In this document: one piece after another, positions 1 to 47,216 of the stretch
How positions within the stretch are numbered: position 1 is the first letter of the stretch
Layout: every line of letters starts with the position of its first letter
Assembly: GCA_030141605.1 (NCBI GenBank)
Contig: JAQGDQ010000346.1
Span: forward strand, 39,742 to 103,741
Length of the DNA stretch: 64,000 nucleotides
Direction: 5' to 3'
DNA from: Tubiluchus corallicola
Lineage: Eukaryota > Priapulida > Priapulimorpha > Priapulimorphida > Tubiluchidae
Position numbers and translations under genes: made by a program
The notes under the pieces: generated by a model
Told to the model about the DNA's origin: nothing
The model's database searches: none
Seen by the model: the letters and a program-made list of their open reading frames with translations, nothing else

Positions 1-415
1 GCAATACGTAACCGCCAGTGTACTTCGTTCAGTTACGTATTGCTTTATATGTATTGTGTACGTTCAGAAATCTGGTACTGGAGATAGGCCTAAGTGTTTT
101 TAGAAACATGTTTCAAACTGCATAACAAACTCGCAGACGTCTAGACGCGAAATGAACTAGAACAACCCTAATAGGCAAAACAAGGTGCCAGAAAGCTTAT
201 GAGTCTGTGCCATATTTTCCTGTAATTATGGGAAATGTTTAAACAAAACACGCATGTGATGACAAAAGTTCTGTTGTTGGTGCTCGCTCGATACCCATGA
301 TGGTGGTGTGGATTAGGTACTCTATGTAGTACTATGCCATCCACTTTTGGTGCGAGTGGATGTAAGATCCACTAGTAGAATGTTCATGCAGTAACGCTTC
401 ATTTTTTCACTTTAG

Positions 416-981
416 GTCTTTATTATGCAGTTCTCATAATCGTCGTCTCGACTGCTACGTTGTCTACAGTTGTCACCATGAAAATCGACATGCAGGGGCA
501 CAAAGGAAGGAGGTTGCCATATTTGGTGCGGAAGCTTTTCTTCGGCGTGGTGGCCAAATTTACATTAACCGATGTTTACGCAGGCACAAGAGAGAAGAAA
601 GCAGCTTGGACACACGAGAAGAAGCGTGAAAAGGAAAAAGCGCGCAATGCAGACGACAAAGAAAAGGGCCCGGATGCACTGGAACCCATCGAAGCGCCAT
701 CACTTATTGATAACGACGTTAAACTTCTGATCATTCGGCAGGAGTGGCGCGCTCTGTCGTGCATTTTAGATCGACTTTTGCTTTTAATTTTTTTAGTTAT
801 GATTATATATGTTGCGATGAGCTGTATTTTTCCAGGAGTTGTACCGCTGCCTAGTGACTTGAGCTTTCAGCAGCAACCGGATGCCAAAGACATTTTTGAA
901 GGGTCTACGACTACGGCAACGCCAACATCTAGCGTAATCGAAACCTTAATGGAAAACGTAACCAGCGGCAAAAATTTTTAA
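416..981 (+). CDS. Last exon of a nicotinic-type Cys-loop receptor subunit (partial, upstream paralogue)
   Basis: The exon opens after a pyrimidine-rich acceptor (tttttcactttag) in phase 1 and runs to a TAA stop at 979-981. It encodes M3 (LYYAVLIIVVSTATLSTVV), a cytoplasmic loop of roughly 95 residues rich in Lys and Glu, M4 (LLLLIFLVMIIYVAM) and a short extracellular tail starting FPGVVPLPS. This is the M3-M4 part of a pentameric ligand-gated channel subunit in the plasma membrane. It matches the last exon of the complete gene downstream in position, phase and sequence: TMKIDM, RLPxLVRK, TDVYAG, REWRALS, YVAMS and VVPLPS are shared. The two are therefore tandem paralogues in the same orientation. 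The earlier exons must lie before base 1. An AATAAA at 995-1000 follows the stop. Subunit type and ligand cannot be told from this exon alone. Confidence 0.9.
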
Positions 982-10300: not shown

Positions 10301-13300
10301 TATGAATCTGAGTTTATTCGTGTGATTGGCTGACTGTTAAAACTCCCGCATCTTTATATTTCAATAAAATAGATGAACTGGCGTTATACAGTAAATTTGC
10401 GTGTACGTTTAAATGAGGATTGTAACTGGACGGTTATATTTGTTTTTCCACAGTAAATTTTAGACTAATCAAAGATTTTATAGTTGGAATTTTATGTGAT
10501 TAGGATAAAGAAAAATGATATCTAAAATTATGCAGTTAAATACTGACCAATTCCAACATTACTTTAAGTGTAACTGTCCATATTTAGTGTATAGATTAAT
10601 AATATTGTTCCGCCGTCGGGTTCTCGCCGCTATGGTTTTAGCAACCACCCCTGGACGGTTTGAAGTGCTATCGGTGGGCGAGAGGCCTCGGTTCGAAATC
10701 GACATCCTAAAACAGAACTAACAAAGCAAGCAACTGGGAAACATTCACCAGCTTAAAAAGAGTGGTATAAGGCCCGACCAAAAACTTAGCTAACATACTA
10801 ATTTTGTAAACACTAGATTGTTACTTTTACCTTGTCATAACCGAAATATACAGCTGGCTAAACATGAAAAACACAGAAAACCAATCTAGCCTTGAGGGCT
10901 TACCACTCCCTTACATTACGCCGAAACAGTTGGAAGACAAGTCCTGGGAGGACGGGTGCAGGCTTGTCCTGTTTGGCGTTACAAACACCAGCAACCACCG
11001 GACTCAAAGAAACAGGATGCGGCACTTGTATTTATAGACTTGCAGGTGAAAACGGGTGAGTATTCGAATTTAGAGCCAATCAGAACGCGGGATTTATGAA
11101 TTCAATTCCAGTAAGATAGTATATTTTAAATTTATAAGGGTGTTTTACTTTAACACGACTCGAAATAACTAACAGGCCGCATATCTGTGTTATTGAATGA
11201 GTGAAAAGCTAGTACGTAAAATAGAGCGAAGCTCAACCCCGCAACAATATTGAGGACTAGCTGAAATAGACGAATTTAAACTAACAGGCTGAATGACCTT
11301 ATATTAGATACGTAGTTTAGTTATTGTTCATACAAGAATAGAATTTTTAATTATACGTATAGAAGTAAAGAAAAAGAAACTTCCTAATTTCCCAAAGAAA
11401 AACAAAAACAAACATGAGCGCAGATCACTTTTAAAAAGTGGTGGTGGGGAGGGTGTAGGTGGCAGCTAATCAATACTAATCAAGAGTGTACGCCGATAGT
11501 CGACGGGGAGCCAATCTCCTTACGAACACTCATTATCTTTAACTGGTTTTGGTGCACCTGTTCAATTTGAGAAAGTGAACGTATGTCCAGTCAGCACTAG
11601 CGACTTGGTTTGTTTATCAATAAATGACGCTATAATGCATGTCATAACCAGACTCTTATGCCAAGCACAGTTGTATTGAAAGTTTTTACTGTTACTGCAT
11701 AAACAAATGTGGCATTAAAACGTTAGGTTAAGTATGCATCACCATGTAACCAAATTATAAAAATTGTGCATACACGTTGTTTATATTAGCCTCAAAATAA
11801 TGAGTAGCACCAGAGTTAGTCTCTAAATAATGAGTAGCACCAGAGTTAGTCTCTAAATAATGAGTAGCACCAGAGTTAGTCTCTAAATAACGAGTAGCAC
11901 CAGAGTTAGTCTCTAAATAACGAGTAGCACCAGAGTTAGTCTCTAAATAACGAGTAGCACCAGAATTAGCCTCTAAATAACGAGTAGCACCAGAGTTAGC
12001 CTCAAAATAATGAGTAGCACCAGAATTAGCCTTAAAATAATGAGTGGCTGCAGGGTTAGACTCTAAATAATGAGTAGCACCAGAGTTGGCCTCTAAATAA
12101 TGAGTAGCACCAAAGTTGGCCTCTAAATAATGAGTAGCACCAGAGTTAGCCTTAAAATAATGAGTAGCACCAGGGTTAGCTTCAAAATAATGAGTAGCAC
12201 CAGAATTAGCCTTAAAATAATGAGTAGCACCAGAGTTGGCCTCTAAATAATGAGTAGCGCCAGAATTAGCCTTAAAATAATGAGTAGCACCAGAGTTAGC
12301 CTCAAAATAACGAGTAGCACCAGAGTTAGCCTTAAAATAATGAGTAGCACCAGGGTTAGCTTCAAAATAATGAGTAGCACCAGGGTTAGCCTTAAAATAA
12401 TGAGTAGCACCAGAGTTAGCCTCTAAATAACGAGTAGCACCAGAGTTGGCCTCTAAATAATGAGTAGCGCCAGAATTAGCCTTAAAATAATGAGTAGCAC
12501 CAGAGTTAGCCTCTAAATAATGAGTAGCACCAGAGTTGGCCTCTAAATAATGAGTAGCACCAGAGTTAGCCTCTAAATAATGAGTAGCTCTAGAGTTACC
12601 CTCTAAATAATGGGTAGCACCAGAGTTAGCCTCTAAATAATGAGTAGCTCTAGAGTTACCCTCTAAGTAATGAGTAGCTCCAGAGTTACCCTCTAAGTAA
12701 TGAGCAGCACCAGAGCTAGCCTCTAAATAATGAGTAGCACCAGAGTTAGCCTCTAAATAATGAGTAGCTCTAGAGTTACCCTCTAAGTAATGAGTAGCTC
12801 CAGAGTTACCCTCTAAGTAATGAGCAGCACCAGAGCTAGCCTCTAAATAATGAGTAGCACCAGTGTAAGTCCATGCGTTTATCAGGCGTGTTCTAGACAG
12901 CTATGTTCTCTCTAGGAAGAGCAAATACAATTAAGATTAATGAACGTTTAGTGTAGATTTAGGCCTAGTTGTCTTTGAATTCGCAGGCAATGTTATTCTA
13001 GTTACGATGACAACGTGTCTCAGGAGGCAAGCCTGTGCGATTATGTGTGGAAATCATTATGCGGATATTAATTATTTAAACCTAGAAGTACTGCGCCATT
13101 AAGCATAAGCTCTGCAACTCAGCACAATAATGTCCGTAGTAAACAGGAATGAATATTAAATGAGACTTGGTTTGCATATGAACCCAAATGGATGTGAAAC
13201 GCAGAAACCACAATCTGACGTTGTTCCTTAACCCTATATTCGTTTCTCGTTTTACCTGATTCATACAAGGAACAATATTCAACCCGTATTTGTTGTTCGT

Positions 13301-16300: not shown

Positions 16301-19300
16301 AGCAATAGCCGTTGTGTTGGTTGAATCTTCTTGTCTTTCATGGAACCATATATCTTTTCACCATTGTGACTGAATTCTTTCACGCAGTATTTGTATCTTC
16401 ACTATAAATTTCCTAACCAATATTTGTGAGACTGACTTCGAAAATTAGCTATAGGAGTTCATATGCTCCGTTTGACTCTGTTGATAGCTGCCATGCATCT
16501 TTTTCTTCTATTCGGATCCGATTTCCCAGTCTTATTCAATGCGAATGCTGACTTACTGACTTGTGCATTCTTGAATGATCAAGTCTGCTATTATCATTGC
16601 TTATAACTTTGCCATGTCACAGCAGGCAACGCAAATCATGTTAGTAATTAAAATCGTGATCATATTAATGCATATTACTTGTGAAAGTTAAAGCTACAGA
16701 TGAGAGCTCTCACTGGCTTGAAGTGTGGGCATCAATTAATTCGTGCCATTATGCATCTTTCAGACTCTAAACTCTAACCCTTGGTTCACACTCCCCTGTG
16801 CTCCTGCTTTGTCATGAAATTGCAGAGAATGCGTACATGCAGTCGACGACGAATTGAAAAACAGAAACTTTTTGGATTCTGGTGAAACAAGAAACGCTGT
16901 TTTCATAAGTACCTCAGAAAAAATGCTGATTCACTCGCATATTTTTTCAACTCCAAAAGCAAAAAAGTGCTTATTCAGCTGTCAGCTGAACTGAAATTTG
17001 GTAGGATAATTAGTCAGAATATAAGTGATTAATGCAAAATTGTAGCAATCCATTCTTTAATTAGTTAATTAATTAGAGCTGTTTCAACCTTGGAAATAAT
17101 CAGCATAACAACACGTAGAATCGGTCTCCAGTTCAATTTCACTTAATACATTGGACTGAGAGTTTTTTTGGACAAAGTCAACAAAAACAGTACATTGCCC
17201 GAATCTACTTCATTCAATTAAACTTAAAGTTCTTACCATATCGTTTGACAAGGATGAAATACTTGCTCAGCGTTTAAACAAAAATTCTGTCTTCAAAGAA
17301 ATCTTTCCATGTTACGTCCTTTCTTATCCTACTTAATTTCTTTAAAGGGACAACTTGTCAACTCCGAATTTGAAAAACAATGGGTCGTATGAAAAACAAT
17401 AACAATTTATTTATAGCCACTGTCATTAGAAAGTTAATTACATAATAATGTATTTATCTGGATAATTTTGGGCCTAGAGCATATTTTTAAATCATTTGCA
17501 GTTGTTTCCGGATAAAACCAAAGAAATTTTGTTGTTGAATTTAAAACCATATTTAGAATTTCGTTTATATAAAGCTGTTTGAAAATTCTCTAAACACGGA
17601 CACCATGGAAGTTAATATTTTTAAACTTAATAAGCTTAATAACATGTCAACGTAATAACTTATTATGTCCCTTGTTTACAGAATATTATATCAGCTTTAT
17701 ATAAATGAAATTCTAGAACTGTTTTTAAGTACAACAAATATCTTTTGTCATATCTGAAAACAATACCAGAGTTTAGAAACATTAATAATGGAGTATATCG
17801 ACATAAAGGTTTTAGAACATATGTTCCCTACTTGCAATCTACTTATAGGCAATTTCTAACTCATCTAGTCTGCTAAGTATTTTGCTGCAACATTATTGTA
17901 TAAAACATTTTTTAACTTAAGGTTCAGTCAGTGGAACTTCGTACTCAGATGAAAACAGACAAGCCCACGAGCCGTTCGATCTATTCAGTGCTATACCTGT
18001 CAGCAACTTGTCAGCTCCAGAGACAAATGAAAAAGGAAATGTACAAAGAAGTCACATAGCAGTATTTAAACCAGGTAACACATTTTTAGACTAGATGTAA
18101 ATTGAAGTAATACTTTCTATATTAGCTAAAATTCGTTTGCCCTGTTTCCTTTCCAGCTTTTGTTTTTCGTTCTTCTTTATATCATTCTCCTTTTTCTTTC
18201 TGCCGTTTCTACAATAAGTAATTGTCTGTTTGTCAGTCGGGTCTTTCTTTCTTTCTTATTTCATTCTTTCTTTCTCTTTCTTCTTCTTTTCGTTCGTTCA
18301 TTTTTCTTTTGTTCTTTTTTCTTATTTTTATTACTTTACCTGTCTTTTACAATATTTTTTCTATTTCTTTTTTCTTTTCGTTATTTTTCTTTTTTACTTT
18401 ACTTTGTTGTTTTCTCACTTCCTAGCGCCCATTTTGCATTTGGCAAATTTTATGTCACCCGATTTTAGGATACGTATTAGCTTTTATCTGATAGCAGTAA
18501 ATTTTAATCTTTTACGTTTTGCTTTAAATAAACTGTTTTTAACTATTGATATGTGCCTTGAAATTGGTACTTAAGTTGTGATTTAGTAAACAAAATATGG
18601 TTTAGAAATTAAAAGATTCTACATGCAATAACTATGGTTTTATGAGTGACATTTTTATTTATGATGCCAGATGACGAGCAGAAGAATGAAAACATTACAA
18701 GGGAAAACATGGATTCTAAGGGACCAAACAGAAACGGGAAGTCTGAGAAAGAAGGTGACGTTTTACAGAAAGAGTCTAATCAAAGCAATAATCAAAAAGA
18801 CCAGTTACCGAAGGAGTTAAAAGATTTTTTTTCATCAGAAGGTACCAAAGAAACCTTTCAGAAACTAACCTATCTGTTGAATATGATAGAGAACAGCGAT
18901 CTTGAACAGGACATCGGTGAAAGAAAACTCCTGAGTAGAAAGATGCGGGCGACTACAGGAAAGGACAGACCTGAGCATCTGCCTCATCGAGAACGTCTCA
19001 CCAAGTTCTTACTAGATGGTTATAACAGAAACGTCATGCCTCTTGAGAAGCCTGGTGATGTATTAAACGTCATCTTTGATATGACGTTTACCAACCTAAT
19101 TGATGTGGTAAGAATGCAGCGTGTACTCTGTGTTTTGCAAATACAGGGTGTTCCAAAAGAAGCAGTGTCGGTAGAACTACGACAAATATGACAAAATAAG
19201 CTTGGCTTTCTGCATTATGACATCGTAATGGCCTTGAAAATAATGTTATATTTTTTCATCAGTGTTTCAATTTTATTATCGTTGACATTAGCACAGCTTA

Positions 19301-22300
19301 GCTTTCTGTGCTGTGATATTGGCATACTGTTAGCGTTAAGCTCGTTAGTGTACTTTTTCTTTTGGAACGCTCAGTGTTAGTCCTAATTTGAATGCCTTAG
19401 ACTTCAGAAATAAGGATCATATCAGGTGCAGGCTTAACGTGAAGAGCATCAAGGTCATAAGTAAATGCTCCACTTGAACTTTAACCGCAGTGTCTTCGAT
19501 CATGTCTACAATTAATTCACAAATTTGTTAGCATTAGTTTTTATAAAATTATAAACTATAAAAACGTATATATATTTATAATTTATAACTTTATAAAAAC
19601 TAATGCTAACAAATTTATATATGTATAATTATATAATTTATAAATTATATAAAGTCAACTACTGAGAAAGTCTTCAAAATAATGTTATTATCGGTTTAAG
19701 GACTTTTTATTCTCCAAACTTGGCACTTTTGATTTTACTGTAGCTCCTGCAACTTGTTTGCTCCAAATTCTCATACGAACACCTTGGTACGTGTTGGGAG
19801 TTTGTATTAAAAATGCACAGTACATCATGCAACTTATTTAAAATAGGCCATTAAAAACTTCGCGTTTATGCTCACTGTTTGCTGTTTGTACCCATTTCAC
19901 CTGATTTTTGACATACAGTATTACTGTTAGCAGAATTTTTTGTTTAATTTGTTTTCATTTGCTTACTGTTTATGTAGAACGAAGTTGAGCAGTCAATTGA
20001 AACAGGCAAATGGATAGAAATGGTAAATATTATAGTGTTATTATTATTATATAGTGTTCTTCCTCGTAAGCAAGGCTGGCAGAACGGTATCGTACGAAAG
20101 AAATACCGTACTTCGCGCCTCTAAAAATATCGTACCCCAATTCTGTACCATACCTACAAAATCGAATCGTACCGTAATAGTACGATATAATATCGTGCCG
20201 TAATTCCGTACCAAGTGCAACTGTTTACTATAAAAATATAGAGTGGCATAAAAAGTAATTGCAAAAACAATAAGTTTATCAGTTATTCTTACGAATTTTT
20301 GCGTACTGTGAAAACAGAACTGCTGTTCGAACTTCCATACTATTTATTTTAGGTTACAAAAGTTACACGAAATTCTATACGAGATATAAACTTATTTTCA
20401 GTTACTTTTTCTTAGTGAATAATTTTGTGGCAGGCACGTCGAGTTACTGTCATTAACTAGATTTTACTGGTTGTCTTAAATTACGTGCTCACTAGTGACA
20501 AACTTTTGATGATGATTCAAATTTAATGTCTTGCCTAAAGCATTTGTTACTACGCCACGGAGGCTGCGCTGGTAATAACGTGTTGGAAAAAAGGTGCTAT
20601 TTTTTACCGTGCCATTTTTACCTGTGTCATTTTTACAGGGCAGGGCAGTACATTCCCACACAATTATCATAGCAGTTAGAACAGCAGTATAACATGAATA
20701 GGTGTCAAACCTGGTAAACAATATGCCTAGTTTGTTTATTTACAACAACAAAGATGAGTTAATTTACAGGAAATGACAATCGGCGCTTCTAAACAACTTG
20801 CCACTTCTGCATCCTAAACAAACCAATCTAGCGGTTTTGTTTGCGTGTGCTCTGTGCTAATTAGGGGAGAACAATACGTCCCCAATCTTGAGGCTAAACA
20901 AGTCGTCATGCTGAGCTGCTGACCAATGAAAACGTTACAAAAAGATGAGTAAAATAGTACGGAAAAGGTACGATAAAGGAACAGAAAAGGTACGAAAAAA
21001 ATACCGTAATTTTGTATCGTATCGTACTGTTAAAAAAATGCCGTACCATAATTCCGCACCGTACGTTTAAGAGTTTTTTTTTCATACCGTACCGTACTGT
21101 ACTGCCTGCCTTGCTCTCAAGCAGAATGTTTTAATGCTTATGAAATGAAACTTAGTCATACCAAAATCAAAAGGCATCAAGAAAGACATGTTTCTTTCTG
21201 AAATTCTTAATACATGGAAATGAATGTTGGGAATAGCGGAAAACTCCCACCCCTGACACCAATTCTAATCAGCTTAGAAAATAAAAATTATTTCGTCTCG
21301 TACATTTGCCATGGTTGTGGTTCGACACAGCGCTTGGTTGGTATTTAGATATTCCGTGGATATTAGATCTATTCCATTTAGATGCCAGATCTACAGAGTA
21401 TTCTGGAAGGAACAGTGAAGTAGAGATATGATTATTTGCTGAAATATGCTGATCGAATAGAACCGAAAAGTTACCATGGACTTCTGGATTATTACAACAT
21501 AATAACGTAGAAAAATGAAAAGAAATTGCATTTGCATTAGGTCTATTCCAATTTCCTTGCTGCATAACTTATTTTTGTACATACTAACATAAGCTAACGT
21601 AACATGTTTCTACTACATTATTTATCAAATGGTGTTCCATATGCTATTTGATGGGATGAAACCTAATCCCTTGTTAGATAATCATTATTGCTACGTAATA
21701 ACAAATTTATTATGCTGACAGCAATCGTGATTAATTTGAATGAAAATAGAAACTTTCGCATTTCCCCATACATGCCCCAGTGAGCAGTTTACTAAAATTA
21801 ATACATACCCCGGCGAGCAATTTTCCGTCCAAACAAAATAAAAACTAATATTAGTAGAAAGCATTAAGTGCATTTGAAATTCAGGAACAATATTCATGAA
21901 ACTAAAATATATAGGCATAGATTAAGCTCAGCTGGCGATAAGCATATTACGAAAGTAATTGATAATACTTACATATGCATACCTTGGCTTGAAAATTAAA
22001 CACACAACGCAGGCAATTAGCGCTAATAGCAATGCAAAATGGCATTTTGTAAACGTATTATTACGTTATTAATTATCTTCATAGAAATCGCTCTAATTTT
22101 ATCAAACATGGTATTAGCCGTATCTATGTTGAAAAGTAATTAGCACGAGTTTTATATTTTTATATTGGATTAGTTAAGTCATTATGACTTAGATGCAGTC
22201 GACAATTTTTTATAGAATTTTCTGTGCATTTATGACCAATTTTAAAATGTACCTTTATTTAAATTTTTAATTGAAAACGTTTAGCAAGTCTTCTACAAAC

Positions 22301-25300
22301 TAGCTGTTTACAAACATTTCTTTAGTTCTGGAACGACTACAGGCTAAAGTGGAACCCGTCTTACTACGGAGGTGTCGATGCCACTGTTTTACCAGTAAAT
22401 GAAGTCTGGATTCCTGATATTGTTTTACTTAACAGGTAATTTGTACATGCTAATACTGCTATTACTTCGGCAGCCAAAGGTCATTTTTGGTGGAACCTTG
22501 CACTTTCCGTGTAAGTTTTTTCTCAAAAGTTTTCTCATGTTCTAATTGTCTAATTGTCCCTTTTAAGAATATTGAAGGTGCCCATTTGTCAGCCTTGAGC
22601 ATTTCGAGGTATTGGACTGAAAGAGTTACAATGGAAGAAACGTGTTCTGTGACATATCATAATTATTATGATTAGACAAATTAAACTGCTATTGACATAT
22701 AATTCAATAATTGATATCTAATTTTGACGTGCAGAATTTAAAAATTGGGCTACAATACGAGCAGTAACTCAGTTGTGGGAGCAATGATATAATATGGATA
22801 AAGAAACTGTTACCTAGTAATTTAAATAAGTAATGAAATCTTAAGTTTAGTAGATTAAGAAAAGACTAATACATGAATCATTGAAGAAAGACAACTATGT
22901 GTTAATTAGATTCTTGATTCTCCAACTCAATTTTCAATGGAGTGTATAAAACTCAATCATTTTTTCTTTGTTTTAATATCCTTTAAGTTAAAAATATTAA
23001 ATTTAGTTTGCTTAGTGTTCTCGTTTGCACCATTATGGCAGTTTTAATTTGTTATAGTACGTACTTATCTTTCTCTAGTGTAACACTTTTGGTCCAGTAT
23101 CTCAAATTGCTCAAGGGTGGCACAGGGCCACCCTTAATATTCTTAAATAGGACCATCAGAACATCACAAAACCACTGAGAAAAACTTACACAGAAAATGC
23201 AAGGTTCACCAAACCGACTATATATAATATGAGCTTTCACTATTTTCACACGGCAAGTGTAAACCGTGTCGAAAAGCATTTACCTTGTGAAGGGTATTTG
23301 TCGGTTGGGATTAATAAACTTTGTAAAGATTTCAAAGAAACGCAGCAGCATTTTCCTTACTTAATTAAGTGATTAGTCTTTAAATACATTACACCTCAAT
23401 AAGGTATTTACTTCCAGCCTTTTTTTTACATTTGTCTAATCATAATAATTATGGTATGTCACAGAAGACGTTTCTTCCATTGTAACTCTTTCAGTCCAAT
23501 ATCTCGAAATGCTCTAGGCTGACAAATGGGCACCTTCAATATTCTTAAAAGGGACAATTAGAGCATGAGAAAACTTTTGAGAAAAAACTTACACGGAAAG
23601 TGCAAGGTTAAAATAATCGCATGTTTTATGCGTGGCGTGCAAGCGAATTATTAAACACATATGTTAATGTAATCAGTTCATCTCGGAGTCTTCATGTCGG
23701 TCTGACAATATGCTAAACAAAGAGTTTATTCATTTTCCATTTCATTCTATTTTACGAATTTCATTCCCTGCTCATAAAAATTCTCAATATTCTTTATATG
23801 ATTTGTCGTGAAATGTCGGAATCTGCATTAACTGCAGACTCCGGCATCTCACGCTTAATTAACTGTTAGGTTTAAATTTTTACTGTTGAAACTTCTTCGT
23901 CTTCCTTGACGCATCAAAGCGCGTCCTTCGTACGTACACTATAGGTAATGTAGGCACACTATACGTACAAAAATAAGTAGTGCATATAAACCTGGATGTA
24001 CAGTAAATTGTTACATTGTGCTTAACATTTTGAACTTAGAAGCTTCTTATGAATCTATGGTTGTTTAGATCTTATAGACCTTGGCCAGTTTGCCTTTGTC
24101 AAATATGGTAGAACTGCTGTCCATTTTGTCTTATGTTATGTATGTATGTCAGTTTAGAATGTGAGTTTACTAGTGTTCAAGTTAGTTATTTCATTTATTT
24201 GTACTAGTTCATCATGTAATTCATTAGCTTATTTTTGTTAGCAACTTAGCGATTTGAGTAGACCTCTTATTATCTAGGGGCAATTTAGAATCCCATTTGG
24301 TTTAGTGGGCAGATATTTAGTATTACTGATTTTATGTAATTTCGCTCGTCCCACTGTCTGTTAGTGTTTAGTAATTTGTTTTCGTTAATAAACTTGTTCT
24401 AGTCATGTACATTTAAAATCTCTTTTCATAATAGCATTTAGTTCACAGTAACTGAATCAGCTTCACAGATTTCGGTCGACAGTTTGGCTCCTGAGCTATT
24501 TCTCATTATTCAGCTTCAGTAAAAACGACGAGTGCAAAACATTTATGTTCCTCCATTTTTTCCTCTGCCATATCTTACGTCAATTGACTGATTTTCATTT
24601 AGTTTTGCGCTCGATTTTGTATAATCTCCAACTATACTCGAGACTGTGTGTCAGTTCACCCGTAATGTAAAAAAGTCAGACAGATGCACCACCTTTTCGT
24701 TGACCTTGTTTTGATGGAATCAACTAACAATTATAAAGTCTATTGAAACAAAATGTGACCTCAAACGAGGAAATGTGGAAAATCTTGGATTATTCTAGGA
24801 AACGTCTGGACTACAATAAAAGCACAGTCACACGCGGATTTACATTACACCATGCTATAAAACTAAATTCATTAAAACAATAATGTATATCATACAAATT
24901 TCATTTAAGTGATGAAACACTTCAAGCATAAAAATTTGTGTTGAGGATGTGTTATGAAATTAATAGTAAAAACATAAAATATCACCTCTCCAATTCTGTC
25001 GCGACTTTTTCACATTTCCTTTCTTCCGGGCAAATTGGCTTCAACATAATAATATGATGATCGCCTTTAGGTCACCTATATATATTAATGATACTAACAT
25101 TTAATGAGATCACTATCACTATCACTATCAGAAGTTTCATATGCAATAAACTGTTAGAAATCATAACACGCTGTGTGTAAGTTTGTATTTGACTAAAACC
25201 AAAATTGTGAATGATTAATGGCTACTTTTTTATTTAGTATAACATCGTCACCAGTGGCTACAGGTGTGATTCAGTTTCTGACAGTGAGTTATGTAGGCAA

Positions 25301-28300
25301 CGTCCGCTATATGTACGCATCAAACGACGTTACGCCTTGCGGAATTGATATGAGGTCAGTATACATGGCTAATGACGCCATTTTGCCCAAAATTTCCCCA
25401 ATATATATACAATAGGCACAACCAGGGCCTGATTATCCATTAAGCTAGTGTAAGCTGCGCTGTGTTAATAATAAGCTAAGCCCTCAAGCTTTGGTAACAT
25501 TTGGTAAAAAAAATCTGTTTTTTATTACATTGTATTGAAATGTGCTAATTTAATTGCAATAAAATAATAGTGAAATAGTGGCATTTCTTAAAGAATACTT
25601 TTGTTGACAAACAAAAGGTAGCTATACCAGCTTATTTAAAGAATTTGCAATAAGTTTATTTCAAGCTATATATATATATGTCACTAAGATATATCATGAG
25701 TAAAAAAATATTTAAGACGGATGCGAGGGCTAGTGAGAGGGTGGCTACGGCTGAGAGGGCCCCATAATCTCAAAAACCTAGGAGTCCTAAAAGGTCATAA
25801 TCCGGTCCTGGGTATAGCGTAAAAGACTTATAGAGCCTAAAAGGCTAGCCTACAGGTTAAAAGGTTTATCCGCCCATCCACGCCCATCTCATTTTCTATG
25901 CGCAACAAAGTCATTCGTTCTTGTTTTCAGAAATTTTCCGTTTGATGAACAAATATGTGAATTAAAATACGGAGCGGCTACTATTGGTATAAACCTGATG
26001 GACTTGACGCCTCTTACGACAGTGACCAATGTTACCATCTTTGACAAAAGATTTAACACGGAATGGGAGGTACTTGACAATCGAAATGATCAAGTTGCGC
26101 TATTTTGATCAAGTGTAAATAAGAAATTTTGGAAACATTTGATTATGAAAGTAAAAATTTTATAGAGGCGCACAAGCATGCGAAATTAACTAGAACATTT
26201 AAAAATTAGCTACAACTTTTTATATACTTAGAACATCACGCATTTGTTGACGTTAACATGCTCCATTGTTTAATTTTAGATATTGAACAATTCCCTAACT
26301 GTGTCGAGGCATATTGCGAAGTACTCTTGTTGCGAGGAAGATTTTCCGGATATCCGGTTCACTCTACGTATCAAACGTAGACCAAAGTACTACGTGTTTT
26401 CCTTGATGGCTCCGACACTACTTTTGTGTTTTGTTGCCATTATTGGGCTTTTTTCGCCGTCTGCTTCCTCAGGTAATCTCCTGCTTTGTAATATGCGCAT
26501 TTTGAGCTCTGCGGGAAAGTTTAAAAGCAAAACCGGACCCAATGTTAAACTGCAGGTCAAAACAACCTAGTCTTTAAAATATTGAAAGGAAACGTGCTAT
26601 TTCTTCCAAGAATAATTTCCGTGAAAGAATTATTACCCACACAAACGCAATTGCGCGTTCGCGCCACTAGTTCTTCGCTGTTACATGCATTTGCCATTTG
26701 CTAGTTAGACGTGCACTAGCGCCTGCATTTCGGAAAGCGTTGCACAAAAAACAGGTGTTGTACCTCTCGGTTCAGATATGTTAATTTGTAACGAACTGCA
26801 CAGATTCCACAGCTCATAAGTGAGTACAGCGGTAAATTTGAAATTTGAATTTTTATTTTAAAACTTGCCTAGCTTTAGTATAACGTACTGAATATTTTAC
26901 AGTAGCACTGTACTTCAATTTTCGCTTTCGCGACACGGTCATGGAATGTTTTTGGTGTTGAAAACTATGTTAGTTTGTGATGTCATCACTACTATGCCTC
27001 GCCTGCCGTTAATTAAGATTTTCACCTATGACTTAATCATCAGAAATGCCTTTGTAATATTATTGATGTTAAAATGTATACTTTTGCCGTACCTGAAAAT
27101 GGGGTAGTGATATGAAAAATAATCCGGTCTTTTTGTAACCTTAATGTGTCTAAAATGTATCAACTCCCTGAGTCTGTCGGTGGTGCAAACTTGGTCTGTG
27201 TTCGAATCAGCAAACTTTTAAAAAACGCTTAAAGGATGTTAATCTTAATAATCATTTATTTTTTAACAGGCCCACGTAAGTAGCCTTGGCTCTTTGTGCT
27301 TTTATCCGTAATCTTTTAACTAGCCATTTTTATCTGTAAATTTTCGTCTGTGTTTTATCCTGGTTTCATATTTTATTCTTTCTTGTAAATATTTTTAATA
27401 TTTTTTAATAAAGATTACGCATCAAACTAAACTAAACTAAACTAAATTTACCTATATGGCATTAACGTAATTTTTCGCCTTAACGCAAGAGCCTCCTTTG
27501 TCACTCAAGAATACGTGTAACAATTATTCAGATGCCTTGGGAAGGAGGCATGTATGCCGGCGTATTAGCTGGAATAAAATTAATGGGGAATATTCATTAT
27601 AAAAAAGACAATTATTGAGGCTGATCAATAAAGAGTTGGACCAAGCATGGCTAATTTCATTCCTCCGAGTCGATGAAGACATGTACCTAACGCTGCTTAT
27701 ACAATGTAGAAACTCTGCTAAGTATTTTAGACTGAAAAGGTATGCGAGCACTGCCTCGCTTCAATTTTAATATAACAAAGAAAAGATTGCGGTAACTGTC
27801 AGTAGTTTTATCTCTCAGAGACAAAACATAGTACTAGTAACTGACCAAAGCGCAATTTCTTGTTGAACATATTTTCATATGTGGAGAATAAATTAAGATT
27901 GGGAAATGATGAGATAGCGTATTGGTTTGGGGGGGTCTAAAATGTAGGGCGTGTGACATTTTCCATAGGGCCCTGGTTTAAATGCAGGCTCAGTGACAAT
28001 ACTTCCATTAGTTTGTTCCTTTTCTACTTCCAGTATTGTATCTGGCCTCTAAATTAAACAACACTAATTGTGGATTTGTATAATTATTATCTTTAAACTG
28101 CCCATCTGTAACGAATTATCGTTTGTTAATGACAATATTTCGCATGTTTATAATGTTCCCACTGCATCTGATTTAGAAATTAATGCTTGTTATGGTTCCA
28201 CAAATTAATTATGTTTCACGCTTTCTCGTTCTACGTAAATTGCAGGCGAAAGAAGCGAAAGGATCAATTTGGGAATTGCAACACTGTTGGCTATGGTCAT

Positions 28301-29975
28301 TATTCTGATGATGATTACAGATAAAATGCCTACAGCTGCAGAGGCTATTCCACTAATAGGTGACTAGAATTACAGGATTCATTCCACGTGTTAACTGTTT
28401 TTTACAGTTTTGATTTGTATTAGTTATAGTATCTGCAAAAAATAATAAAATAAAACAAGAGCACCTGTACTGGGCTCAAACCCAGGTTTTGATATCCAGT
28501 TTTTCATACAGTTCAACACTTTTTGAACACTTTATCATACAATTTGGCACTCTGCGAGCCGGGACTTATCGTCCAACAATACAACGTTATGCATTGCCGT
28601 TAGGGGCGCTTTACAGTTTAACCAACTACTGTAGTTATAAAAATAAGTAATCACATGAACGCACGAAAGCAATACTAAATTCGACTGTCAGAAAATGTTT
28701 TGCACCTCCACTGGGCTCGAACCCAGGTTTTGATATCCAGTTTTTTATACAGTTCAACACTTTTTCAACACTTTATTATACAATTTGGCACTCTGGGAGC
28801 CAGGACTTATCGTCCAACAATACAACAATATGACCTACTTAATGCAAGTGGTTACGGCATGGCCGAAACCCGTTTCATTGTCAAGGATAGTTTTCCCAGA
28901 TTTTTTTAACAATGTAAATAGCAGAAGTAGTATGGGAAAAAAGCTTCCCAGAAGCATTTCCCGTTAGTCGCCCATCCATTTACTAACCACTGATAAACTT
29001 TGGTTGTTGCTAAACTCATTCCATGACAACCAAAACACTGATTTAGGAGCACGTATAAAGATGTGTAGTCCCATGATGGCTATCTGAACACACTGGCTAT
29101 GAAGTACGTTTAGACCAGCGCCACAAGGCTGCATCTTATGGAAGTCCGTACTAAAAATGTGTACCGGTTGGGTGCATTTTAGTTTTGTTGGTTACTGTTG
29201 AATATTATTCGTTATTCTAAAATACGGTTTTTGGTAAATTTCACTTTTTATTCACCTCCGTTTCGACTTCTTGGCATCAACAAATAAAGGTGTCGTATTT
29301 CGGTTTGCTAAAAGACCGAATTTCGTTCTTTGTTCCCATTTTTCCTTGTTAATAAACCTATAGCAATCGACAGCTTTTAATACAATTTTAAAGGTAGAGC
29401 AATTGATTTATAGCAATGCAATGAAACAATTACACGCCTTTGTGTTTTTAGGCTTGTCCTATTCTACGCTAATAGTCGTGGTTTCAGTAGCAACTTTGTC
29501 AACTATCATCACGATGAAAATAGACATGGCCGGAAATAATGGAAAGCGGCTACCTTTCCTTGTTCGCAAAATCGCATTTGGTATCTTCGCGAGAGTTACG
29601 ATTACAGACGTCTACGCGGGCCTAGAGGAGAGGAAAGAAGCTTGGTCCAAGGAAAAGGCGGCAAGAAAGAAATCTGCTGAAGATGGCGTAAATTCTGCCA
29701 ACAATGCTGACCACCAACCTTCAAAAACTGATAACTCGTATCGTGACGTCATCAAGCGAGAGTGGCGCGCTCTATCGATCATAGTCGATCGTATTTTTAT
29801 GCTGATCTTTCTCACTCTTGTTATATACGTTGCCATGAGCATTGCATTTCCAAGTGTGGTGCCATTACCAAGTGAACAATTGGGTTTCCAGTATTTTCAA
29901 AAGGCAGAGCCGACAGCTGTTCCAGATAATGAAACACAAATTGTCAAAGACGCAGAAGATATGGTCGAATTTTAA
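7283..29975 (+). CDS. Divergent alpha-type nicotinic receptor-like (Cys-loop) subunit, 10 exons, 630 residues
   Basis: Exons: 7283-7343, 17922-18074, 18671-19107, 19978-20022, 22326-22435, 25238-25354, 25931-26069, 26280-26472, 28246-28359, 29452-29975. Every junction is GT-AG, all phases agree, and the exons sum to 1893 bases. The fourth (45 bp) and fifth (110 bp) have the lengths usual in nicotinic receptor genes. Order in the protein: signal peptide (about 1-25), charged extension (about 26-176), ligand-binding domain from HRERL, Cys-loop C303-C317 with 13 residues between, vicinal C371-C372 in loop C, M1, M2 (I425 onward), M3, short loop, M4. M2 has Glu at -1', Arg at 0', Leu at 9' and Asp at 20', which predicts a cation channel. 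Loop D Trp229 and loop C Tyr369 are kept, but loop A Tyr is Leu267, loop B Trp is Ala324 and the last loop C Tyr is Phe376. The family is clear; the ligand is not. The start is the first in-frame ATG, and exon 1 is assigned by phase and signal-peptide character. Confidence 0.92.
7375..7990 (+). repeat. Dispersed repeat copy A (receptor intron 1)
   Basis: It is collinear with 63018-63590. Shared strings include AAAGCACAAGAA, GAAACAAGTTTAGATAAC and ATGGAAAG, with diverged spacers. A third partial copy (acgaaagcaatactaaatt) is at about 28655-28710. Not identified. Confidence 0.75.
8020..9630 (-). pseudogene. Decayed CR1/L2-like LINE: SGNH esterase, endonuclease and start of RT
   Basis: Reading the minus strand from 9630: a charged coiled-coil-like piece, [10 protein letters not shown] (SGNH block I), [19 protein letters not shown], then [20 protein letters not shown] (the GLHL box of the esterase). 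Next comes [11 protein letters not shown] and [13 protein letters not shown] (endonuclease end), [20 protein letters not shown], and finally [13 protein letters not shown] (RT entry block). The order fits a non-LTR element. Several frameshifts and stops make it inactive. It lies antisense inside receptor intron 1. Confidence 0.75.
10610..11000 (+). mobile_element. Possible SINE/MITE with tRNA-like box B
   Basis: A GC-richer island in AT-rich surroundings with CGGTTCGAAATCG (box B-like) at about 10690. No tail or target duplication was found, so this is weak. Confidence 0.25.
11788..12870. repeat. 36-copy minisatellite, 30-bp unit without indels
   Basis: The unit is CTCTAAATAATGAGTAGCAC followed by CAGAGTTAGY. 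All 36 copies keep exactly 30 bases; only point variants occur. A 120-bp higher-order block (12631-12750) is repeated at 12751-12870. Between about 12121 and 12420, units alternate (ctctaaa/cttaaaa types) as 60-bp dimers. It lies in receptor intron 1. Confidence 0.98.
12871..17921. other. Rest of receptor intron 1
   Basis: Apart from the triplet tract at 13340-13550, I see no exon or recognisable element. Overlapping open frames at 15395-15893 on the two strands have no motif. Confidence 0.45.
13340..13550. repeat. Impure GAT/GAG/GAA trinucleotide tract
   Basis: A purine-strand triplet repeat. It opens long low-complexity frames (poly-Met/Arg on one strand, poly-Ser/Ile on the other) that have no other coding character. 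Confidence 0.9.
17922..18074 (+). CDS. Receptor exon 2: start of the N-terminal extension
   Basis: The frame gives [17 protein letters not shown], then [15 protein letters not shown], ending in phase 1 at ccag followed by gtaaca. An alternative AG six bases downstream (exon start 17928) keeps the frame and would drop two residues. The segment is polar with an NLS sequon and resembles no domain I know. Confidence 0.8.
18225..18425. repeat. Pyrimidine-rich TTTC/TTCT tract
   Basis: Low-complexity T/C sequence in receptor intron 2. It produces open frames of Phe/Ser/Leu that are not genes. Confidence 0.85.
18671..19107 (+). CDS. Receptor exon 3: charged extension plus start of the ligand-binding domain
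   Basis: This 437-bp exon begins after gatgccag in phase 1. Its first ~105 codons are Lys/Glu/Asn/Gln-rich low-complexity sequence. The last ~40 are the conserved N-terminal helix and first strand: [17 protein letters not shown], then [12 protein letters not shown] and MTFTNLIDV. It ends in phase 0 at gtaaga. Confidence 0.92.
19521..19616. repeat. Perfect 27-bp inverted repeat, receptor intron 3
   Basis: Left arm 19521-19547 (begins AAATTTGTTAGCATTAG) is exactly complementary to 19590-19616. The loop is 42 bases of A+T. Confidence 0.97.
19978..20022 (+). CDS. Receptor exon 4: 45-bp loop D exon
   Basis: It encodes [15 protein letters not shown]. The Trp (residue 229) fits the loop D tryptophan because the next exon supplies the second Trp of the W-x4-W pattern. 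The length and both phase-0 boundaries equal the classical 45-bp nicotinic exon. Confidence 0.92.
20071..21113. mobile_element. Non-autonomous hAT-like DNA transposon, receptor intron 4
   Basis: The ends are inverted: CAAGGCTGGCAGAAC at 20071 against CAAGGCAGGCAGTAC on the minus strand at 21113. Many GTACGGTA/TACGATA-type repeats cluster in both subterminal zones, as in hAT elements. The flanks carry a diverged 8-bp duplication (ctcgtaag / ctctcaag, 6 of 8). No transposase frame was seen in 1043 bp. Confidence 0.8.
22326..22435 (+). CDS. Receptor exon 5: 110-bp loop A exon
   Basis: It encodes [17 protein letters not shown], then [26 protein letters not shown] and VWIPDI are nicotinic receptor signatures. 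Leu267 occupies the site of the loop A tyrosine (the usual motif is LYN; here it is LLN). The 110-bp length is the classical one. Confidence 0.95.
22494..23609. repeat. Inverted-repeat trio, receptor intron 5
   Basis: 22494-22681 is the reverse complement of 23430-23609 with few mismatches (AACCTTGCACTTTCC ... ATTATGATTAGACAAA). A more diverged third copy in the second orientation covers about 23069-23212. Confidence 0.93.
23804..24481 (+). mobile_element. Possible solo LTR
   Basis: The segment begins TGTCGTGAAATG, ends GGTCGACA (5-bp inverted termini), and holds an AATAAA about 100 bases before its end. TGGCTCCTGAGC follows closely, like a tRNA primer site. No target duplication is seen (tgatt against gtttg), so this is uncertain. 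Confidence 0.25.
25238..25354 (+). CDS. Receptor exon 6: strands before the Cys-loop
   Basis: The exon completes a Ser codon and encodes [20 protein letters not shown], then [18 protein letters not shown]. It carries the first Cys-loop cysteine (C303) and ends in phase 2 at gtcagt. Confidence 0.92.
25931..26069 (+). CDS. Receptor exon 7: Cys-loop and loop B
   Basis: It encodes [19 protein letters not shown] and on to [18 protein letters not shown] completes the Cys-loop (C317). The loop B motif, normally GSW(T/S)Y, reads GAATI, so the key tryptophan is Ala324. One NVT sequon is present. Confidence 0.95.
26280..26472 (+). CDS. Receptor exon 8: loop C and M1
   Basis: [12 protein letters not shown] is loop C with the adjacent cysteines C371-C372 that define alpha-type subunits. 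[16 protein letters not shown] leads into M1 ([13 protein letters not shown]) and the SPSASSG linker. It ends in phase 1 at gtaatc. Confidence 0.96.
27150..27447 (+). mobile_element. Probable tRNA-derived SINE ending in an (AAACT)n tail, receptor intron 8
   Basis: The head reads GTCGGTGGTGCAAAC, then GTGTTCGAATCAG (box B). The body ends with an AATAAA, a short spacer and four AAACT units at 27426-27445, the usual layout of a LINE-mobilised SINE. Confidence 0.55.
28246..28359 (+). CDS. Receptor exon 9: M2 pore helix
   Basis: It encodes [18 protein letters not shown], then [19 protein letters not shown]. Aligned to nicotinic M2, Glu423 is -1', Leu433 is 9' and Asp444 is 20'. The M1-M2 linker seems about three residues longer than in alpha7 (GERSER against GEK). 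It ends in phase 1 at gtgact. Confidence 0.95.
28461..28832 (-). repeat. Two neighbouring copies of a tRNA-like SINE segment, receptor intron 9
   Basis: 28461-28590 and 28702-28832 are close copies in the same orientation (shared: CAGGTTTTGATATCCAG, ATACAGTTCAACACTTTTT, ACTTATCGTCCAACAATACA). On the minus strand both carry GGGTTYGAGCCC, a box B. Confidence 0.85.
29452..29975 (+). CDS. Receptor exon 10: M3, cytoplasmic loop, M4
   Basis: It encodes M3 ([20 protein letters not shown]), a cytoplasmic segment of about 90 residues with [10 protein letters not shown] and TDVYAG, M4 ([19 protein letters not shown]) and a tail ending DMVEF. The short loop and the shared motifs mirror the exon at 416-981. 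Confidence 0.96.
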
Positions 29976-30526: not shown

Positions 30527-30975
30527 CTATGGTGGTTCTAATACAAGGTACACGTGTTCTTCTGTAGATGACATAGTTTGCCCTGCAATAGCAGCAGTGG
30601 ATGCTGGAGTTTTCAAATCTGTTTCTTCCATTATTGGTCCAACACCAGTTGCGTCGTGAAAGGTTCCATAGTTGTGTTTGTCAACTGAAACGTTGCTTTC
30701 TCCTGGTATGTTATAGACATCACGATCACGATCAGCGATGTCACGTTGGTAGTCTAAAACATCACTTTCTTTTATGTATTCATAAACATTAGGTTCATCG
30801 TTTCTTGGGAATGGTGCAGGAGGCCGGTGAACTGGTTTAGGCGTTTCTTGTACAAGTTCTGGTTTCGTGTTGGAGACTGGTTTTGACCTTTTATAAAGAA
30901 TAACAGCAATAGCGAGTAGTAGAACTATGATCGTTACTCCAATCACAGCTCCAAGTGTTATTGCTATTATTTCGC
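30527..30975 (-). CDS. Last exon of the minus-strand gene: membrane helix and cytoplasmic tail
   Basis: The acceptor is ctttacag. The frame runs 148 codons to TAG. The hydrophobic run is followed by LYKRSK, a stop-transfer charge cluster, so the tail should be cytoplasmic. Confidence 0.82.
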
Positions 30976-32886
30976 CTGTAAAGCAATAAAACGATGAATT
31001 TTAACTATTTTAAACATTTCATTGACATCAGAACATCATGCAAGCAAGTTCATTTGTTAGCGTTTCACAAAGACAAGTCATACTTTACTCCCCTTCGCAG
31101 GAATGGTTTTGCCCCTGACTAATATCAATGCTGTAAGATAACGGTAACTGAATTAACTGAAACAATGGCTATATTCACAAATCAGGTAATCTACACTGAT
31201 ACAACGCAAGAAATTCAACTGCAAAGCAAATAACAAAAAATTCATGTGGACTTTAAAACTTTAAAACAGTGATTTTAAAACTTTGTTGATCACGCTTACA
31301 AAGTTGGCAATTGATTAGCATTACTAACGAGATGGACAAAAATACAAATTTTTTTGACATAATTTTTTCCTATTGCTGTGCCTAAAAGCTACTCATATTT
31401 CAATTTTTAAATATAGCCTTTAATTTTAATGTTTAACGCTCGTTTTTCTTTTGATTTGCGCAATATTCTTGTTTTGTCGGTTGCCAAATCTGTGGGACCT
31501 CGACAATCTGAAACAGTTTAAATTTCAAAGAGCAGGCATGGGTCCGCTACAAATATCTACATGAGTTTATGTACTAAAACGAGTATTTTAACTGGTAAGA
31601 CGTTTGCCAAATGTAGGAGCTGCAACAGTCGTGGCAAACAAATGGGTAAACAAAATTTGGAGTCGCACTACTCGTCAAAATTTTCCTTCACACGCGCATT
31701 ACAGAAACCAAACTTTTAGTGCTGGATGGAAATAGGTATTTTTAAAAATTTAGTTGATACTGTCTACCCTTGTAGAGGAAGTACAAGACCAATTCCGCGT
31801 CAGCAGTAACAGCGACAAGGATAACAATTTTAGATACCAATATCTTACATAACAAAATCACAGTATTTTGACTTAAACGCCGATAAAATTGTTATTTAAA
31901 TTATGAATATAGTACTAACTTTTTTATTTCTTACCTTTGGACAAATTCGTTTTCGGGTTTTGTTTGTCAAAGTGTGGTTCAAATGAGGAAGGTTTATGTG
32001 AGTCCAGTGACTTGGCCACAGTCGTGGTTTGGCTAACTCTGAGATCACTAACCCGTGGATTGTCGTATTGAAGCGTGCTGCCATCTGCTAGAGAGTTAAT
32101 AAGATGTAAGAATGCTATTAACAAATCTTAGAGTTCAAAGTCTGCAATACAGACACTGGCGATAAGACGATGACAGCAAACATCAACACAACAGCCTGTA
32201 GCTATTGCGGTTTTAACCAAAAAGCTGAATGTAAAGTGGTAAAAAAACTGAAAAATTATTAGGCCATATTATATACCAAATCGGTTGTTTTCATTATTTT
32301 CATGTTGACAAAGTTTTGCTATATTGAATGTATCTATGCACTAAAGCCATAGGCATAAAAATGAATTAAGATGAAAGCTAGAAAATTTCTATAAAACGGT
32401 TAGGTCTAGCGTTGCAATAAATGCACCGCTTTTTGTCCCAGGTATGGCTGAAAAAAAATTGTGAAAAATTGAACTGAGCCTGATTTGAACAAGTGACCTT
32501 AATTTGAGCTACCAGCTCTGCGTGTCACTATACCACAGCCCTTAATTAACGATTAGAACAAATTCTGGTCGTCTAGCATTTTAAGCACCAATTTGCTAAC
32601 GTTATACTGCAGTGATTTTTCAGTTCTATAGGTAGACTGTAAATCTGGTAAAATATAGTTAACATTTTTTTTATAATTATTTGAAATAATAGTAGCAATA
32701 TTGCCCATAAGCTGCAAAGACAAGATACTAAAAAACCACTAAACTTACTTGTTTTTGTTGTTGGAACTACAGTAGATGTGGATAAAAATTTTTTTAAGAA
32801 ACTTGTTGTCGACGTTTTAGGTGACGCTTTTTTGTCTTTGGATTTCTTCTCCTTCATTTTGATTCTTGTCAAAACTATTTTCCAGG
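30527..32886 (-). CDS. 3' part of an unidentified single-pass membrane protein with a tyrosine-rich tail
   Basis: Three exons on the minus strand join in phase 1 each time: 32886-32749, 32087-31935, 30975-30527 (stop TAG). The first begins WKIVLTRIKMKEKKSKDKK and turns into a Ser/Thr/Pro stalk (STSTVVPTTKT). The second is polar. The third holds one membrane helix (IIAITLGAVIGVTIIVLLLA, then IAVILYKR) and a cytoplasmic tail of about 118 residues. The tail has a proline-rich PxxP segment (HRPPAPFPR) and tyrosines in NVYEYI, DVYNIP, HNYGTF and HVYLVL, which could bind SH2 proteins or act as YxxL sorting signals. The phase-1 acceptor at 32886 means that at least one upstream exon is unplaced. The Met at 32862-32860 is an alternative start but has no signal peptide. 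I do not recognise the family. Confidence 0.75.
31935..32087 (-). CDS. Stalk exon of the minus-strand gene
   Basis: 153 bp, phase 1 on both sides, donor gtaaga. It encodes DGSTLQYDNPRVSDLRVSQ onward to NPKTNLSK. The acceptor reads TAGCAG, a NAGNAG tandem, so the exon may start at 32087 or 32084 without changing frame. Confidence 0.72.
32460..32545 (-). mobile_element. Weak tRNA-like sequence
   Basis: On the minus strand GGTATAGTGAC (box A-like) and ACTTGTTCAAATCAGG (box B-like) stand about 40 bases apart. The acceptor stem does not pair, so it is not a functional tRNA gene. Confidence 0.3.
32749..32886 (-). CDS. Basic/Thr-rich exon of the minus-strand gene
   Basis: 138 bp between catattgcag and gtaagt, phase 1 on both sides. 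It encodes 45 residues: a Lys-rich stretch followed by STSTVVPTTKT. It is probably extracellular and near the membrane. Confidence 0.65.
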
Positions 32887-41330: not shown

Positions 41331-41435
41331 ATTTGGCGGGATAACCCGTTCAGTCAGCTGATCGCGCTGGCAGTCGACGCACGGATCGCATCAACGCCGG
41401 CTCTGCTGCTGCGCTGCTGCCGCTCTGTAGTTATC

Positions 41436-41799
41436 ATGGTATATTGTCGCTGTGAGCTATCCCTCCTTCTGCTGATTCTCATTATGTGTGCCGATTCGGC
41501 GAGTATCAAACGATCAGCAGAGTCGGAATCTAGTAGGTGTCAGGGGTGTTCTACTCAGAACAAGGAAGAGAGTGACAAGGTGCGGCTAGAGATCATTCGG
41601 CAGCAGATTCTCGAAAAACTGCGGCTACCGGAAGTGCCGAATATCACTCGACCACTTCCGAAAGATGTGTTGCTTAGAGCTTTGGATAAAATTGATCCAC
41701 AAGTGATGGCAGATGTAGGCGAGGAGTCGACTAACAGAAAACCCGTGCCTAGTGAATATTATGCCACAACTCGTGAGATCATTAGCTTTTCAGAACCAG
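41436..41799 (+). CDS. Activin-like ligand exon 1
   Basis: It holds the signal peptide, the CxxC pair and the first propeptide helix region, and ends in phase 1 at gtaaga. The frame stays open upstream through the GA repeat, so the start is chosen from the signal peptide and not from an upstream stop. Confidence 0.9.
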
Positions 41800-46085: not shown

Positions 46086-46261
46086 ACCACTGACTTTAAT
46101 TTTATTTTAAATTGAAATTTAAATGTCTGTGCACTCATCCTTTTGTACTGTGCGTCTGTTTTCCCTTATCATGTCGTTGTTTCGGTGCTGCTACGTTCTA
46201 AAAAGTCATGTTATGTCCCACATGTTGATGCCACGCATTCCTGTCTTCTGCCGCTGCCCAC

Positions 46262-47216
46262 AATGCATCATCCCTCAAATCTAGAGTTGTATAAGAAAAC
46301 TGAAGTTATGTACCAACCAGCCCCAGACGCCCCACAGATTCAGCCAAAGATCTTAGTGAATGGTCAAGAACTTATCTCTGTTGACAACTTCACATACCTG
46401 GGGAGCACCCTTGCCTCAGCTGCCAACATTGATACAGAAATCAACAACAGAATTGCCAAGGCTAGCGCTTCATTTGGAAGACTTCGCTCCAACGTATGGG
46501 ACAGGAGAGGCATCAGAACCCCCACAAAATTGAAGGTGTATAGAGCTGTCGTCATCACCACTCTCCTCTGTGCCAGTGAATCCTGGACATTATATAGCAG
46601 ATACGTAAAACAGCATAACCACTTTCACATGGCCTGTCTGAGGAAAATCCTGCACATCAAGTGGCAGGACAAGGTGCCAGACACTGAGGTACTTAAAAGA
46701 GCTGACCTCCCCAGCATCCATACACTCCTCAAAACACAAGTTCGGTGGGCGGGACATGGGATTCGCATGCCAGACAACCGCATACCAAAGAAGATGCTTT
46801 ATGGAGAACTTTTGTCTGGAAAGAGAAAGGTTGGACGACCAAAGAAACGCTTCAAAGACAGCCTGAAGGCTTCACTCAAGGAGCTCAGCCTGGATATCCG
46901 CTCAATGGAAACCCTTGCACAAGATCGCTCAGCATGGCAGAGTGCCATCACCTCAGGGGCTAAGACAGCAGAGGCGAAAAGAATTGAGGAGGCAGAGGAG
47001 AAGCGCAGGAGACGCAAGGCATGTGACACTGCCCAACAACAGGTCAAAACACCCAGCCTCACCTGTGCCAAATGCCAAAGAAGTTTCCAGGCCAGAATTG
47101 GCCTAATCAGTCACCTTCGAGCTCATCAAAGGAATGATAACCCCCAAACTGACTCTTTAATGTCTTTATCCCTGTCACTATGGTCATCTTCGATTCGAAG
47201 GACAAACATCATCATT
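46262..47216 (+). mobile_element. 5'-truncated non-LTR retrotransposon (RT tail and C2H2 finger)
   Basis: A long open frame starts within the RT at KKTEVMYQPAPDAPQIQPK, then FTYLGSTLASAANIDTEINN, LKVYRAVVITTLLCASESW, GRPKKRFKDSLKASLKEL, DRSAWQSAI and a C-terminal zinc finger (CAKCQRSFQARIGLISHLRA). The order matches widespread invertebrate LINE copies. The 3' end is near CATCTTCGATTCGAAGGACA and ACATCATCAT. About 300 codons are intact without a stop, so the copy is fairly young. The RT catalytic part is missing. Confidence 0.9.

Follow-up and report, generated by a model that had tools for sequence, protein, structure and literature searches.

The DNA analysed here is a stretch of 64,000 nucleotides from contig JAQGDQ010000346.1 (the window). 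It carries R2, a gene for a nicotinic-type receptor subunit in which the loop B tryptophan of the ligand pocket is replaced by alanine, and, upstream of it, the end of a tandem paralogue, R1. R2 consists of eight exons on the + strand between positions 18661 and 29975; all seven introns are GT-AG, the frame is kept throughout and the intron phases match (Table 1). An earlier note on this DNA had placed an alpha-type receptor at 22326..26472. That span does contain real coding sequence, but it covers only exons 3 to 6; the loop D Trp that the note counted among the conserved residues (its Trp229, here W161) is likewise present, but it falls beyond the span, being encoded by exon 2 (19978-20022). 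Counted from the ATG at 18661, the product has 562 amino acids, and the residue numbers of the earlier note are 68 higher than those used below. The product matches Pfam families PF02931 (Neur_chan_LBD, E 2.5e-46) and PF02932 (Neur_chan_memb, E 2.8e-10); its Cys-loop has the form C-x13-C, which together with both Pfam domains identifies R2 as a Cys-loop (nicotinic-type) receptor. No signal peptide is present at the model start, and an Rfam search of the window returned 0 matches.

Table 1. Exons of R2 and associated features, with positions in the window
Feature	Position	Strand	Content and basis
R2 exon 1	18661..19107	+	Charged N-terminus of ~100 amino acids, then start of ligand-binding domain; open frame, donor GT, PF02931 from residue 111
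R2 exon 1, alternative start	18671 (acceptor)	+	Exon may begin here
R2 exon 2	19978..20022	+	45 bp; loop D Trp W161 (codon 20011-20013); AG/GT borders, phase, and a 45-bp R1 exon at the equivalent place
R2 exon 3	22326..22435	+	Loop A; Leu L199 (22428-22430) replacing Torpedo Y93
R2 exon 4	25238..25354	+	Loop E, with Arg R224 (25305-25307) at the alpha7 Q117 position and Met at L119; first Cys of the Cys-loop
R2 exon 5	25931..26069	+	Remaining Cys-loop and loop B GAATI; A256 (25977-25979) replacing W149, I258 replacing Y151
R2 exon 6	26280..26472	+	Loop C Y301, C303-C304 (26328-26333), F308 (26343-26345), D200 equivalent; M1; start of M1-M2 linker
R2 exon 7	28246..28359	+	Remaining DEG-3-type long M1-M2 linker; M2 pore helix
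R2 exon 8	29452..29975	+	M3, M3-M4 loop, M4, C-terminus, stop
Possible signal-peptide exon of R2	16614..16680	+	67 bp; phase fits the acceptor ending 18670; candidate lead from a mechanical scan only
R1 last exon	412..981	+	M3 to stop; second of two identical copies of this exon; other R1 exons lie upstream of the window

To locate the loop B site, residues were counted from the second Cys of the Cys-loop; the site is the seventh, and no gap intervenes. This residue is Trp in all seven PDB chains compared, three from C. elegans and four human, and in R2 it is Ala256, within the motif GAATI; Ile258 stands at the Torpedo Y151 site. The alanine had been described in the earlier note (as Ala324), and the gapless spacing bears this out; none of the alignments places an aromatic residue at the position. 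In loop A, Leu199 occupies the Tyr site, and in loop C Tyr301 and the vicinal pair C303-C304 are kept, with Phe308 in place of Tyr198. The Cys-loop, the Cys pair (C371-C372 in the note) and the loop C Tyr (its Tyr369) are thus retained in the spliced model, as is the loop D residue Trp161, and R2 also keeps the K145 and D200 positions and the Arg before M1. By the convention that names nicotinic subunits from the adjacent loop C cysteines, R2 is an alpha subunit; its aromatic box (Y93, W149, Y190, Y198) reads L, A, Y, F, which is not that of an acetylcholine-binding principal subunit. Receptors of this family with E-1', L9' and D20' in M2 are cation channels. Since the R2 pore residues are E-1', N2', A6', L9', I13', M17' and D20', R2 is expected to be a cation channel, in agreement with the earlier prediction. 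Pore numbering follows that of ACR-23 (PMC11377560).

To place these changes among related receptors, the whole genome (343.5 Mb in 2344 contigs) was searched for the ligand-binding domain, which gave 98 exon-level matches. The comparison table contained 28 rows, 21 from the genome (20 nicotinic-type and one outgroup) and the seven PDB chains. Trp was found at loop B in 26 of the 28, non-alpha subunits included, and Ala only in R2 and R1, that is, in two of the 21 genome rows. Genes that were partial or repeated were kept outside the table: those on contigs C2, C1309 and C1467 (loop B exon not seen in the last) and a second identical copy of C864. Both C2 and C1309 have the loop B Trp. A further 16 contigs with a ligand-binding-domain match also stood outside the table; seven of these were anion-channel-like by eye. 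The remaining substitutions are less distinctive. Leu at the loop A Tyr site (Leu267 of the earlier note) was confirmed but is not exclusive to the pair, being found also in C791 and in the non-alpha C97_43k, and Phe for Y198 (its Phe376), although present as described, is an ordinary change that occurs in 7 of the 13 alpha-type rows of the genome. Loss of the pocket is not in itself startling, because losses at the principal site are common among oyster alpha subunits: the full site is kept in only 13 of 33 and is not fully conserved in the other 20 (PMC6896357). A literature search for orphan subunits lacking this Trp, judged by title, produced no paper on the point.

Other members of the family were recorded in the same survey. 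Four soluble proteins resembling acetylcholine-binding proteins (L025, L029, L037 and L041, on contigs C127 (twice), C1784 and C1986) all have the loop B Trp, a signal-like start and the loop C Cys pair, lack the Cys-loop cysteines, and end at or beside a Cys. When one of the four was compared with the PDB, alpha7 was the best match, and the top natural acetylcholine-binding protein by name, that of the annelid Capitella, ranked below several chimeras. Given the animals in which such proteins are known, the presence of these four genes speaks against a nematode as the source of the DNA. The nicotinic-type gene on C1309 (L056), which has a loop C Cys pair, shows a degenerate Cys-loop without FPFD. 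The two copies on C864 (L016, L017), which lie ~14 kb apart and do not differ in Cys-loop or loop B, represent either a recent duplication or an assembly duplicate.

R1, of which eight exons were found, is the upstream tandem neighbour of R2 and has the same LLN and GAAT motifs. Across 211 aligned positions of the extracellular domain the two share 61% identity, with synonymous differences of 0.79 (saturated) and non-synonymous differences of 0.27. The LLN and GAAT motifs of the pair are therefore of old date and maintained by selection, and the pocket change has been kept and is no assembly error. Orthologues bearing Trp had been proposed as a sign of such an error; within this genome the sole near paralogue found, R1, also has Ala. 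The five pocket loops of R1 and R2 are 80% identical (49 positions) and the rest of the domain 55% (162 positions), a difference reached by none of 210 circular shifts. For R2 against its other relatives the corresponding values were 33/29% with DEG-3, 43/30% with C791 and 49/30% with C485. We read this as a pocket that was probably altered on the stem leading to R1 and R2 and kept thereafter. A stretch of 1412 bp that includes the last exon of R1 occurs twice on the contig with 100% identity, at 45-1456 of the window and again just upstream of the window, with an N run between. The repeat is probably a scaffold artefact or assembly duplicate, and for this reason the terminal part of R1 seen in the window may not mark a gene end of its own.

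The relationships of R2 were examined by searches against the PDB and by phylogeny. The first five matches to R2 were DEG-3 (E 6.3e-58), alpha3, ACR-23, alpha6 and DES-2, and with the M2-M3 region the first three were DEG-3, DES-2 and ACR-23. Among controls from the same genome, C485 and C2008 matched alpha7 and C1181 matched alpha4, and the first matches of C791 were DES-2, DEG-3 and ACR-23. In a maximum-likelihood tree of the 28 rows, built with insert columns removed, R1, R2 and C791 formed one clade with DEG-3, DES-2 and ACR-23 (support 100/97; 99/99 in a tree of 10 rows), and C485 adjoined this clade in the 28-row tree (100/98). A four-residue longer M1-M2 linker was present in six of the 28 rows, exactly the six of the DEG-3 clade; this mark was observed in the present comparison and is not a published criterion. 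Grouping of R1 and R2 with C791 gave p-AU values (approximately unbiased test) of 0.234 with 28 rows and 0.436 with 10 rows, which neither establish nor reject it. A clade of R1, R2 and C485 was disfavoured (p-AU 0.0237 with 28 rows). Judged from its sequence, R2 is a real subunit of a DEG-3-type pentameric cation channel and has been conserved as such.

Four papers (PMC2662886, PMC2936538, PMC11377560 and PMC8747062) describe the DEG-3 subfamily as nematode-specific, although one of them, PMC2936538, names Schmidtea in the legend of its DEG-3 figure, so that a flatworm relative may have been seen there. No report of the subfamily outside nematodes was found in literature judged mostly by titles and the starts of abstracts, in which a mention may be missed; this literature dealt largely with nematodes or anthelmintics, and in part with other subjects such as ectoparasiticides, cancer and cholinergic signalling. 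Searches for relatives in a collection of viral contigs and in a collection of genome contigs were of little use: the former gave 0 loci and the latter a single bacterial homologue of 23% identity (L001), which was set aside. If the host is not a nematode, the claim of nematode-specificity needs correcting, and it is on this claim that PMC11377560 bases the status of the subfamily as a safe anthelmintic target.

The consequences of the altered pocket can be considered in the light of mutants of ACR-23, in which residues of loops A, B and C cage the quaternary amine of betaine. The substitutions Y116A, W178A and Y222A nearly abolish the betaine current and W78A leaves about half of it, and monepantel still opens the channel in most of these mutants (PMC11377560). 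The W178A, Y116A and Y222A results lend good support to the view implied in the earlier note that acetylcholine should not be bound on the principal face of an alpha-like subunit from which the loop B Trp is missing. Both roles offered in that note, binding of another ligand and a structural or modulatory part, fit the sequence. In R2 no quaternary ammonium binding is expected at this face because the aromatic box has been lost (Tyr to Leu, Trp to Ala and Tyr151 to Ile). The gating machinery looks intact, since the vicinal Cys pair, the loop C Tyr, K145, D200, the pre-M1 Arg and the cation pore are all kept. By analogy with ACR-23 we infer that the plus face of R2 would offer no site for acetylcholine, choline or betaine, and that the channel would still be gateable.

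The reading we favour, to which we would give an even chance, has R1 and R2 binding some other ligand, one that is not a quaternary ammonium compound, in a reshaped pocket. The principal face, having lost its aromatic box, would fail to hold a quaternary amine; the other ligand would be bound in the pocket that now carries the loop E Arg; and the usual closure of loop C upon it would then open the pore. The ligand itself is putative, as is any joint channel of R1 and R2. At a guess, the basic loop E residue (R, R and K in R1, R2 and C791) would suit an acidic group on such a ligand. Extended further, this becomes a scenario that is tentative and, taken whole, rather doubtful: a DEG-3-group pair, probably outside nematodes, whose pocket was rebuilt for a non-quaternary-amine and perhaps acidic ligand met by the loop E Arg, the pocket having changed first and then been frozen through the tandem duplication, with C791 as a halfway state.

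Several observations weigh against a new ligand. The loop E argument rests on a single position. In all eight pairs compared, pocket loops exceeded the remaining domain in conservation (for example DES-2/ACR-23 84/42%, alpha3/alpha6 86/68%, alpha3/alpha7 65/38% and DEG-3/DES-2 55/38%); by this excess R1 and R2 therefore behave like a working pair, and their pocket is not thereby special. Over a shorter stretch, the conservation of loop C of R1 and R2 (0.61) does not exceed that of the remainder (0.62). Moreover, with the Trp of loop D and the Tyr of loop C still in place, an interface with another subunit could still bind acetylcholine. A different role would be a complementary or structural one, in which R2 (and R1) would lend only its minus face to an adjoining subunit that has an aromatic box, for instance C485 or C791, and would tune the channel, with no ligand on its own plus face. 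The vertebrate subunits alpha5 and beta3 are precedents for subunits of this type. Such a role is a realistic alternative, if one we think rather less probable than not. In its favour, both R1 and R2 retain the loop D Trp. C485, beside the clade, has Tyr, Trp, Tyr and Tyr across loops A to C, Trp is present at loop B of C791, and the same five solved entries contain DEG-3 together with DES-2. On the other hand, the minus face is itself altered, with Arg and Met in loop E of both genes, and conservation between R1 and R2 extends to the plus-face loops (identity 78% in A, 89% in B and 73% in C). Loop C with its flanks is identical at 11 of 18 positions between them, within the range of seven alpha pairs (47-94%), whereas loop C drifts in the non-alpha subunits of the genome (10-24% in four pairs; 33% in one mixed pair). 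It is because the plus face of R1 and R2 is conserved that we favour a new ligand over a role through a partner subunit.

Two other explanations deny the pocket any present use or question that it is altered. The stem of R1 and R2 is long (2.42 changes per column in the 28-row tree and 1.58 in the 10-row tree), as might be expected of a decaying gene that lost its pocket when the receptor fell out of use, and this length also counts against the favoured reading, although the stem of the nematode chains is long too (0.97 and 1.16). Decay is nevertheless very improbable: beyond the stem the tips are short (0.32-0.35 in the 28-row tree), pore and gating residues are conserved, and both genes have intact frames and splice sites despite saturation at their synonymous sites. 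That an aromatic residue really stands at loop B and was obscured by alignment or assembly is barely credible. The R1 region is irregular, with identical 1412-bp stretches flanking an N run, but the duplicated stretch touches the loop B exon of neither gene, the Cys-loop spacing is fixed, and the same Ala occurs in two diverged genes.

Elsewhere in the window, a TGF-beta family gene was found at 43214-44104 together with 41415-41813 (PF00019, E 6.8e-30); it is activin-like by eye, and its propeptide match is below the Pfam cut-off (E 0.00088). An open frame on the minus strand at 30530-31000, with one hydrophobic stretch and a tail with tyrosine motifs, resembles the end of a membrane receptor, and a 422-amino-acid open frame at 46116-47384 appears by eye to be a piece of a non-LTR (long terminal repeat) retrotransposon; neither has a Pfam match. 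A 381-amino-acid open frame on the minus strand at 11755-12900 consists largely of repeats of a 14-letter protein unit.

The known receptors most like R1 and R2 are DEG-3, DES-2 and ACR-23 of C. elegans, which are receptors for betaine or choline. They share the clade, the longer M1-M2 linker and the vicinal Cys pair, they are the closest solved chains for the pore region of R2, and ACR-23 has E-1', L9', I13', M17' and D20' of M2 in common with R2 (PMC11377560). The pockets differ: the nematode chains keep the loop A Tyr and loop B Trp where R1 and R2 have Leu and Ala, they lack the K145 and D200 residues that R1 and R2 retain, and at the loop E site they have E, E and S, whereas the three DEG-3-like genes of this genome are basic. 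Loss of the loop E Pro-Pro pair was considered as a specialty of R1 and R2 and dropped, as C485, C791 and the nematode chains are also without it. C791 (L014, L043) resembles R1 and R2 in its DEG-3-type insert, loop A Leu, loop C Phe and basic loop E residue, and differs in keeping the loop B Trp and in having Thr at K145. With the box present in C485, a halfway state in C791 and the box lost in R1 and R2, one genome would make the path of ligand change testable by expression, and the loss of the loop B Trp shared by two old tandem genes can be viewed as a natural counterpart of the ACR-23 W178A experiment. Nicotinic-like receptors that do not respond to acetylcholine have been reported elsewhere, namely the orphan Alpo4 of Alvinella and the cephalopod chemotactile receptors (PMC10338036, PMC11526382). 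Alpo4 is the reverse of R2, having the loop B Trp and lacking the vicinal Cys pair; the cephalopod receptors are set beside R2 by description only, for their reported lack of an acetylcholine response. If the favoured reading is true, R1 and R2 would represent a further route by which nicotinic receptors come to recognize new signals, besides that of the cephalopod chemotactile receptors and perhaps of Alpo4.

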